This document shows positions 9,142 through 36,929 of a stretch of 64,000 nucleotides of DNA, piece by piece. Source of the DNA: Pseudogemmatithrix spongiicola (GTDB lineage Bacteria; Gemmatimonadota; Gemmatimonadetes; Gemmatimonadales; Gemmatimonadaceae). The notes under the pieces are model-generated. The model had not been told where the DNA came from and made no database searches. It saw only the letters and a list, made by a program, of their open reading frames with translations. The DNA is taken from the NCBI RefSeq assembly GCF_030623445.1, contig NZ_CP130613.1, forward strand, positions 1,860,001-1,924,000, written 5' to 3'. The first letter of the stretch is position 1. Each line of letters begins with the position of its first letter. Position numbers and translations under genes: made by a program.

Positions 9142-9307
9142 GCTGGAAGACGGGAGACGGCGGTACGGGCGGAGGGGGGCCGACGGGATACGGGATACGG
9201 AAGAGGTGGGGGAGGAGGCACATGTTGGCCAACTTCTGCCCTCTTCCCCCCATCTCCCCCATTCCCGTCTCTCCATCCCCGCCCGTACCTCCGTCTCCCC
9301 TCTCCCA
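9142..9307. repeat. Long inverted-repeat element, copy A (both arms, no gene)
   Basis: Copy A of a G-rich inverted-repeat family. The left arm begins AGCTGGAAGACGGGAGACGG, then CGGTACGGGCGG. The right arm is the reverse complement of the same consensus and ends CCCCTCTCCCA, touching the TGA stop (TCA at 9310) of the metallo-hydrolase gene. The middle (about 9181-9235) is partly degenerate and contains no gene. The shared landmarks are CGGTACGGGCGG and GGGAATGGGGGAGATGGGGG. It fills the gap between the metallo-hydrolase stop and the infC promoter. Confidence 0.75.
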
Positions 9308-20643: not shown

Positions 20644-20735
20644 GGCTGGGAGACGGGAGACGAAAGTACGGGCGGAGATGGAGAGACGGGAATGGGGGAG
20701 ATGGGGGGGGAGATGGGAGACGTGCGTGTCGGTGA
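20644..20735. repeat. Long inverted-repeat element, copy B (left arm only)
   Basis: This single left arm carries GGGAGACGGGAGACGAAAGT followed by ACGGGCGGAG, then GGGAATGGGGGAGATGGGGG and an inner GGGAGACGTG. No right arm is present before the dnaG stop (20765). It lies 10 bases upstream of the zinc-ribbon gene start. Confidence 0.7.
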
Positions 20736-25893: not shown

Positions 25894-26049
25894 AGCTGGG
25901 AGAGGGGAGAGGGAGGTACGGGCGGGGGGAGGGAGACGGGAATGGGAGAGATGGGGGGGCAGACGTCTCACGTACCCGCCCCCGTCTTCCCCCCGTCTGC
26001 CTCATTGCCCTCTCTCCATCTCCGCCCGTACCGCCGTCTCCCCTGCCCC
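25894..26049. repeat. Long inverted-repeat element, copy C (both arms, no gene)
   Basis: The left arm begins AAGCTGGGAGAGGGGAGAGG, then GGTACGGGCGG, and ends with the inner motif AGACGTCTCACGT. The right arm, the reverse complement of the consensus, overlaps the 3' end of the glycosyltransferase gene and supplies its last 15 or so codons (ending GETAVRAEMERGQ). The arms meet almost directly with no gene between. Confidence 0.75.
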
Positions 26050-29150: not shown

Positions 29151-29224
29151 GGGGAGGGAGACGGCGGTAGGGGCGGAGATGGAGAGACGGGAATGTGGGA
29201 GACGGGGGGCAGACGGGAGGGGGG
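29151..29224. repeat. Long inverted-repeat element, copy D (left arm only)
   Basis: This single left arm reads GGGGAGGGAGACGGCGGTAG, then GGGCGGAGATGGAGAGACGG, and has a GGGGGGCAGACG inner end. It abuts the start of prmA. The remaining gap to the dnaJ stop (29225-29327) contains no right arm but a degenerate 7-base repeat (CAACTCA units from 29282). Confidence 0.7.
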
Positions 29225-30481: not shown

Positions 30482-31156
30482 CGGGGAGACGGGAGAGGGC
30501 GGTACGGGCGGAGATGGTGATACGGGAATGGGGAAGATGGGGGGCAGACGTATCACGTGGCCTAGTTTCGGTCCATGCAAACATCGGACCGGGGCGGACT
30601 GCCTTTCGTGCAGACGCAGGAGGAATGGGAGAGGGGGCAGCCGGGGGCGATAACCCGAGACTTGCTCTGGAAGCTGCACGTGTATCGTGCGGCGCTCTTC
30701 CTGTTGCACGGGGCGGTGGCGGACGCGAAGGAGCTGCGACGGAATAGGCGATACGCAATCGCCGATCAGCTCGTGCGGGCGGCGGGCTCGGTGAGCGCCA
30801 ACATTGCGGAGGGGTATAGCCGCTCCGGCACGGCCGACCGGGTGCGATTGCTCGACTACGCACTCGGCTCCGCGCGGGAGTGCATCACGTGGTACCAAGC
30901 CGCGTCAGACATCCTCCCTCTCCCCGTCCTCGAAGCCCGCCACGAGCTCCTAAGCCGCATCAGAGGAATGACACTCCGACTCATCACGTCCCAGCGCGGA
31001 AGGCACGCAGCTCCATTCCGACGCAAAATCGCTGACGGATAGCGAGAAAGGGCCGGGATAGGAAACACGGGGGAGAGACGTCCCACGTCTCCCCCCCGTC
31101 TCCCCCATTCCCCTCTCCCCATCCCCGCCCGTACCGCCGTCTCCCCTCTCCCACTC
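30482..31156 (+). mobile_element. Candidate mobile element: inverted-repeat arms enclosing a four-helix-bundle gene (copies E and F)
   Basis: A left arm (30482-30560: GGGGAGACGGGAGAGGGCGG, TACGGGCGG, then an inner CAGACGTATCACGT) and a right arm (about 31070-31156, ending ACCGCCGTCTCCCCTCTCCC) are inverted repeats of about 75-80 bases with roughly 80% similarity by eye. They enclose a single plus-strand gene at 30575-31042. The same arms occur elsewhere in the window without the gene (copies A, C, G) or singly (B, D). The element separates hrcA from dnaJ and stops precisely at the hrcA TGA. No transposase of a known type is present. Mobility is inferred from copy number and structure; target-site duplications were not identified. 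Confidence 0.6.
30575..31042 (+). CDS. Four-helix-bundle protein (23S rRNA intervening-sequence/Avd-like family)
   Basis: A 155-residue, mostly helical protein. The central stretch DLLWKLHVYRAALFL, then ADQLVRAAGSVSANIAEGYS, then LDYALGSARECITWYQ matches the pattern of the four-helix-bundle family (IVP/S23, related to Avd of diversity-generating retroelements). That family is known for genes inside 23S rRNA intervening sequences and free-standing copies of unknown role. It is the only plus-strand gene in the hrcA-to-coaD block and lies inside a pair of long inverted repeats. ATG 30575 has no clear ribosome site. Function is unknown; nucleic-acid binding is inferred from the family. Confidence 0.82.
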   Translation: MQTSDRGGLPFVQTQEEWERGQPGAITRDLLWKLHVYRAALFLLHGAVADAKELRRNRRYAIADQLVRAAGSVSANIAEGYSRSGTADRVRLLDYALGSARECITWYQAASDILPLPVLEARHELLSRIRGMTLRLITSQRGRHAAPFRRKIADG

Positions 31157-36770: not shown

Positions 36771-36929
36771 TGCTGGGAGAGGGGAGACGGCGGTACGGGC
36801 GGAGGGGGGCCGAGGTGATACGGGAGAGGAGAGACGGTGGGGAGACGGGCGACGTACGTGAGACGTCTACCCCCCATCTCCCCCATTCCCCTCTCTCCAT
36901 CCCCGCCCGTACCGCCCTCTCCCCTGCCC
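36771..36929. repeat. Long inverted-repeat element, copy G (both arms, no gene)
   Basis: The left arm begins TGCTGGGAGAGGGGAGACGG, then CGGTACGGGCGG. The inner region has GACGTACGTGAGACGTCTAC. The right arm ends CCGCCCTCTCCCCTGCCCC, touching the TAG stop (36930-36932) of the next minus-strand gene. The arms are of the same consensus as those flanking the four-helix-bundle gene. Confidence 0.75.

Follow-up and report, generated by a model that had tools for sequence, protein, structure and literature searches.

The stretch of DNA analysed here (the window) comprises 64,000 nt of the Pseudogemmatithrix spongiicola genome. Within it, two inverted arms enclose one plus-strand gene, which is flanked by hrcA and dnaJ, both on the minus strand. 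The left arm (30484..30558, plus strand) is G-rich and starts with GGGAGACGGGAGAGGGCGGTACGGGCGG; the right arm (31078..31152, minus strand) is its inverted counterpart. Each arm is 75 nt long, and the two are 84% complementary and separated by 519 nt. These values confirmed the initial annotation, which had described inverted arms of about 75-80 bases, about 80% alike, around a plus-strand gene in a minus-strand hrcA-dnaJ block. The enclosed gene (30575..31042, plus strand) encodes 155 amino acids and is the sole ORF between the arms with a family match. It matched PF05635 (E 7e-18, 65.2 bits against a curated cut-off of 33.8) and TIGR02436 (E 9e-20, 70.9 bits against a cut-off of 24). The protein had been annotated as a member of the four-helix family of 23S rRNA intervening sequences, and both profiles bore this out.

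The predicted model of the window protein showed four long helices (mean pLDDT 84.9). It matched the solved structures 2gsc (XCC0516) and 2rld in fold; a weaker match was to Avd chains of the retroelement RNP and diversity-generating retroelement (DGR) reverse transcriptase complex (8ub7, 4dwl). With profile scores above the cut-offs and a four-helix fold, it meets the definition of the PF05635/TIGR02436 (IVP, S23) family. The invariant residues were Q, R, N, E, G, S and E, and no recognised catalytic motif was found in the protein. Orthologous pairs had dN/dS values of 0.05-0.36, including one pair with saturated synonymous sites; the value was 0.36 between the host genome (G000) and G070 of the same genus, whose arms in the hrcA-dnaJ gap differ strongly. 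Judging by these comparisons, the four-helix protein is under purifying selection while the arm sequences change fast.

The arms are not confined to this gene. In the window, the arm core occurred nine times at no more than one mismatch (0.93 expected) and a second arm motif seven times (0 expected). The initial annotation had placed the arms, without the gene, at five other gaps. A genome-wide arm search recovered complete gene-less palindromes with the same sharp ends at three of them (9145..9306, 25898..26042 and 36775..36923); the other two (20648..20708 and 29156..29215, both plus strand) are single arms for which no partner was detected. Over the whole genome, a single contig of 3,257,781 bases (3.26 Mb), one arm used as the query gave about 60 matches, mostly head-to-head pairs 130-190 bp long. 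By our own count, about 20 of these pairs are gene-less palindromes. Nearly all start with GGGAGA or GGAAGA, usually after a T, and finish with TCTCCC, usually followed by A; the gene-bearing copy shares both ends. They therefore meet the definition of MITEs, i.e. non-autonomous copies with the ends of a gene-bearing copy. No clear target duplication was seen around the palindromes of this genome except AGGT at genome position 684242. A genome-wide profile search showed that the genome has not one PF05635 gene but two. The second, at genome position 1159952, has different arms, composed of AGATGTG/AGATGTA heptamers.

We found that the arms are arrays of heptamers. When periods of 4-12 were scanned, 73% of loci reached a run score of at least 10 for period 7, compared with 1-6% for each other period and with 5% of control windows 1.4 kb away at period 7. 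The aligned repeat unit was T (75%), C (58%), A (67%; G 24%), G (92%), C (55%), N, N, giving the consensus TCAGCNN. Its sense was consistent in 198 of 219 arms, pointing toward the gene upstream and inverted downstream. The unit sequence differs among loci and among genomes, and a few loci have 8-nt units. The window's own arms are degenerate, with period 7 visible in the outer part only. Selection on the arms at the RNA level was considered and set aside, since the excess of G-U-compatible mismatches on the gene strand (114, against 89 on the other) is weak and not convincing.

PF05635 genes were found by profile search in 95 of 118 sampled genomes of the bacterial family, with up to 14 per genome. 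For each gene, we then aligned 600 bases of upstream sequence to the reverse complement of 600 bases of downstream sequence and took a score of 17 as a pass; upstream and downstream flanks drawn from different loci had a 99th percentile of 16.5. In the phylum, 75 of 81 PF05635 loci were bracketed by inverted arms (59/64 in the family, 14/15 elsewhere in the phylum and 2/2 in the host genome), compared with none of 41 control genes (Fisher P = 2e-26). The controls, from the same or related genomes, were PIN (0/28) and hrcA (0/13) genes. Outside the phylum, 76 testable loci were drawn from 80 named genomes and seven viral contigs. The arms bracketed 33 of them, all with period 7, and none of 251 shifted windows. 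These passes included Acidobacteriota, Chloroflexota, Planctomycetota, Bacteroidota, proteobacterial groups, Patescibacteria and Fermentibacteria. Another 56 loci, many of which are gammaproteobacterial, were taken from those named genomes and a gammaproteobacterial class sample; 38 passed, every one with period 7, and Cyanobacteriota and Abditibacteria were added. The collection was scanned with alignment A2 because the broad alignment A1 was too diverse for scanning. Relatives of Xanthomonas XCC0516 in the gammaproteobacterial class search were at most 59% identical. By this alignment test, arm bracketing of PF05635 genes is general, extending over gammaproteobacteria and at least ten phyla. 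The initial annotation had named two outcomes here that would refute it, arms around unrelated genes at random and homologues never associated with arms. Neither was met with.

Filled and empty versions of the same site were found on cyanobacterial plasmids. At site A, plasmid C of Trichormus variabilis (L340), with an element of 423 bp, and a Scytonema plasmid (L344) carry the gene. In the plasmids of Nostoc carneum (L342), Microchaete (L343) and Aulosira (L352), the flanks are about 97% identical and exactly 428 bp are absent. The empty sequence is AAAAAGTAATTAACAAAT; the filled one reads AAAAAGTAAT, then AAATCAGAATTCAG...GAGTTCTTCTTT, then GTAATTAACAAAT, with a 5-bp duplication of GTAAT. 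At the same site, Nostoc C052 (L345) has a decayed copy and Brasilonema (L353) a gene-less palindrome with TAATTAA flanks. Site F is filled in Nostoc ATCC 53789 (L360) and empty in C057 (L363), and TTCTA is duplicated. Identity among the elements of sites A, F and G (L361) is 78-82% across 416-419 bp, and no homology was found among the genes surrounding the three sites, where only further short arm copies match. Site B is filled in two plasmids (L338, L339), lacks both element and gene in L347 and holds a gene-less palindrome in L346. A comparison of L356 with L357 at this site revealed an insertion of another type of gene-less palindrome, built of AATTCAA heptamers, with an apparent GTCA duplication. 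No clean target duplication was found at sites B, C, D, E and G, where the flanks differ or are degraded. Thus, a discrete insertion with target-site duplication is established at two plasmid sites, for related elements, and was not seen for the window's own family.

The hrcA-dnaJ gap was also compared within the genus of the window. Among the genomes read, only G000 and G070 have the gene there. The gap is -1 to 109 bp, with next to nothing in it, in G119, G124 and G126; in G122 and G023 it contains repeats but not the gene. The element proposed in the initial annotation would have been refuted had relatives offered no empty hrcA-dnaJ site, and such sites exist. In the sister species G023 (L127), the gap is occupied by a different gene-less palindrome, with arms TTTGCCACAGAGGCACGGAGACACAGAG. 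Insertions fall in intergenic gaps, often directly after a stop codon within an operon, and several are old and vertically kept at one site. Among 79 locus pairs sharing both flanks, 14 (four sites) have the gene flipped relative to the flanks, which may reflect recombination between the inverted arms or re-insertion. The sites with flipped genes include L196/L249, L198/L227, L090/L105, L096/L122 and related loci.

The filled and empty plasmid sites and the comparisons of the hrcA-dnaJ gap indicate that the arms and the gene travel together. We infer with high confidence that they move as one unit, although no jump was observed. The suggestion of a possible undescribed mobile element was thus supported, none of the three refuting outcomes named beforehand having occurred, with the reservation that movement is deduced from sequence comparison. 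Three things had been overlooked: the heptamer arrays of the arms, the bacteria-wide association, and the clean empty plasmid sites with target duplications.

We also asked which activity moves the unit. No transposase had been visible to the initial annotation. The PF05635 gene is the only family-matching ORF between the arms, and a profile search of the complete host genome found neither Y1_Tnp (PF01797) nor RVT_1. Both were likewise absent from 22 related genomes with at least six PF05635 copies. Y1_Tnp occurred in only 21 of the 118 related genomes and in none of the genus sample. The PF05635 copy number did not depend on the presence of Y1_Tnp (3.3 vs 3.5, P = 0.69), nor did copy number differ with the presence of reverse transcriptase (P = 0.19). 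A RAYT acting in trans and a reverse transcriptase acting in trans were both rejected on these grounds for this family. As far as these genomes tell, movement in one genome family does not depend on a Y1 (RAYT) transposase or on a reverse transcriptase.

Period-7 arrays, on the other hand, followed the gene. Among 249 genomes of the phylum, those without PF05635 had a mean of 0.5 arrays and those with at least eight genes a mean of 81. Array count and PF05635 count were correlated in the phylum (Spearman 0.60) and within the family (0.56); shared ancestry was not removed. A reversed control pattern was about equally enriched. Because it behaves much alike, the array count backs the 7-nt period and not the exact motif. 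One genome (G211) has a single PF05635 gene, 181 TYRG arrays and no instance of the control pattern, possibly reflecting a burst of gene-less copies. The most economical inference, in which we have moderate confidence, assigns the role of mobility factor to the four-helix protein. Its chemistry is unknown, and its binding of the heptamers is inferred.

The element shares features with several known systems. 23S rRNA intervening sequences with an S23/IVP ORF encode the same protein family (PF05635), and their ORF also lies within terminal inverted repeats. In Coxiella, a 28-bp stem of inverted ends surrounds an S23/IVP-type ORF, and a mobile origin has only been hypothesised (PMC4990558). In contrast, the elements described here lie between protein genes, their arms are made of heptamers, and they occur in many copies, with gene-less palindromes and clean empty sites as well. 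The window locus, between hrcA and dnaJ, is not inside a 23S helix from which RNase III could excise it, and so is not such an intervening sequence. REPIN/RAYT systems likewise combine dispersed extragenic palindromes with a few copies in which the same palindromes flank a gene. Those are defined by a Y1 (HUH) transposase gene, whereas the gene between the arms here is a four-helix one (PF05635) and no PF01797 was found in G000. Inverted ends, a 5-bp target duplication at two sites and gene-less miniature copies recall insertion sequences and MITEs. However, no DDE, HUH, tyrosine or serine recombinase gene is present, and the ends are variable heptamer arrays, not a fixed terminal sequence. 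The definition of an insertion sequence or transposon, an element that encodes a recognised transposase or recombinase, is not met by PF05635 alone. Avd of diversity-generating retroelements has the same fold (8ub7, 4dwl), and the resemblance of PF05635 to Avd has been noted (PMC10053308). The elements here nevertheless lack a reverse transcriptase, a template and a variable repeat, and reverse transcriptase was not needed in the tested genomes; with no RVT_1 in G000, they are not diversity-generating retroelements either. The element behaves as a transposable element with MITE-like derivatives, yet it fails the protein tests of insertion sequences, REPIN/RAYT systems and retroelements.

Heptanucleotide repeats themselves have been reported. 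TAACTGA repeats are known in Beggiatoaceae, where the author suggested that a repeat-binding protein might be the mobile element (PMC4679880). GGGAATC repeats in Xanthomonas occur as convergent pairs (PMC4692102), and MTYCTGA and GGGACCG repeats in Geobacter were read as regulator sites (PMC2700814). By rotation or reverse complement, the published heptamers match our arm motif (TCAGTTA, TCGGGAA and TCAGRAK), and a gammaproteobacterial four-helix gene (L328) has CGGGAAT arms. None of these three papers ties the repeats to a four-helix gene or to an element. We found no paper linking PF05635 to heptamer arrays or to transposition, in a search that did not cover most subscription papers or preprints outside PMC.

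Our results point to an undescribed type of mobile element that is very widespread. We consider that the window feature is probably one copy of it, whose four-helix protein drives or licenses the movement. The element would span about 420-700 bp and consist of a left heptamer-array arm, the PF05635 gene and a right arm in inverted orientation. The protein, which is probably pentameric, as is the solved relative XCC0516, would recognise TYRG-type heptamers; both the binding and the pentameric state are inferred. The inverted arms would most likely be folded as a hairpin of RNA or single-stranded DNA when recognised, a form that is likewise inferred. Recognition would drive or license the movement of the protein's own unit and, in trans, of the gene-less palindromes. 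The strands would be cut and joined by the protein itself or by host replication/repair enzymes. 23S rRNA intervening sequences would, again by inference, have arisen from copies inserted into rRNA helices and rendered harmless there by RNase III. A wider hypothesis is that the pentameric protein is a new mobility enzyme or factor without a DDE, HUH, tyrosine, serine or RT domain, which recognises inverted TYRG-type arrays, moves its own unit and the gene-less palindromes, and is the common cause behind both the unexplained heptanucleotide repeats of many phyla and the 23S rRNA intervening sequences. We put this forward tentatively, with somewhat more doubt than belief.

It is also possible, although unlikely, that the four-helix genes are only passengers. 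The palindromes would then be an independent repeat family, spread by replication slippage or another enzyme, and captured genes would be carried along, for instance as autoregulated or selfish genes with a product that binds heptamers for regulation. The ratio of gene-less palindromes to gene copies in the host genome (about 20 to 1), genomes with many arrays and one gene (G211), arms that differ between sister species at one site, and the published interpretation of such repeats as regulator binding sites (PMC2700814, PMC4679880) would all be expected. However, mere hitchhiking does not readily account for one gene family tied to arms in at least ten phyla when the PIN and hrcA controls have none, for the joint entry of gene and arms into the empty sites A and F, or for the near absence of period-7 arrays from PF05635-free genomes.

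Movement through an RNA intermediate seems quite improbable. The four-helix protein would in that case act as Avd does, chaperoning RNA for a reverse transcriptase provided in trans, as the fold match and the published resemblance to Avd might suggest; the 23S intervening sequences, too, have hairpin arms around an ORF (PMC4990558). The lack of RVT_1 and Y1_Tnp in the host genome and the 22 multi-copy relatives, together with copy numbers independent of reverse transcriptase, argues against it. Still less probable is a REPIN identity for the palindromes, with a Y1 (HUH) REP-associated transposase moving them. The architecture is similar, but Y1_Tnp is missing from the host genome and the genus sample and scarce among related genomes, copy number does not follow it, and the gene between the repeats is not a RAYT. 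We give equally little credence to an ordinary host gene with vertically maintained terminators or insulators as its flanking arrays. Several sites are indeed conserved in the same operon gap across species, but this explanation is contradicted by the filled and empty sites, with their precise boundaries at 97% flank identity, their target duplications and the occurrence of the unit at unrelated sites.

If a mobile element driven or licensed by its four-helix protein is the true explanation, a family of unknown role with a solved structure, present in at least ten phyla, would acquire a function. Several catalogued and unexplained heptanucleotide repeat families would be explained, and the 23S rRNA intervening sequences would have a source. 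It would also define a class of mobile elements whose only protein has no known nuclease or polymerase. Small constructs, about 450 bp in length, would suffice to test the proposal.

Some individual copies lie in particular genomic settings. In two cyanobacterial plasmids (L341, L354) the four-helix gene is located between cas6 and cas4 of a type I-D CRISPR operon, and in a third (L359) between cas10 and cmr3 of a type III-B operon; in close relatives the four-helix gene is absent from these positions. Six viral contigs from IMG/VR (L269-L275) have the gene at one shared site beside apparent head genes, and several of the contigs carry TCGGCNN arms. Proteobacterial copies (L190, L205, L214, L216) lie between pilB-like and pilC-like genes, and other conserved insertion gaps are dprA-topA (L209) and argC-argD (L232), all these gene names being read from sequence. 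In a betaproteobacterium (L302), the four-helix gene has very long arms of 91 nt, which are 87% identical and composed of TGAGCGG-type heptamers.
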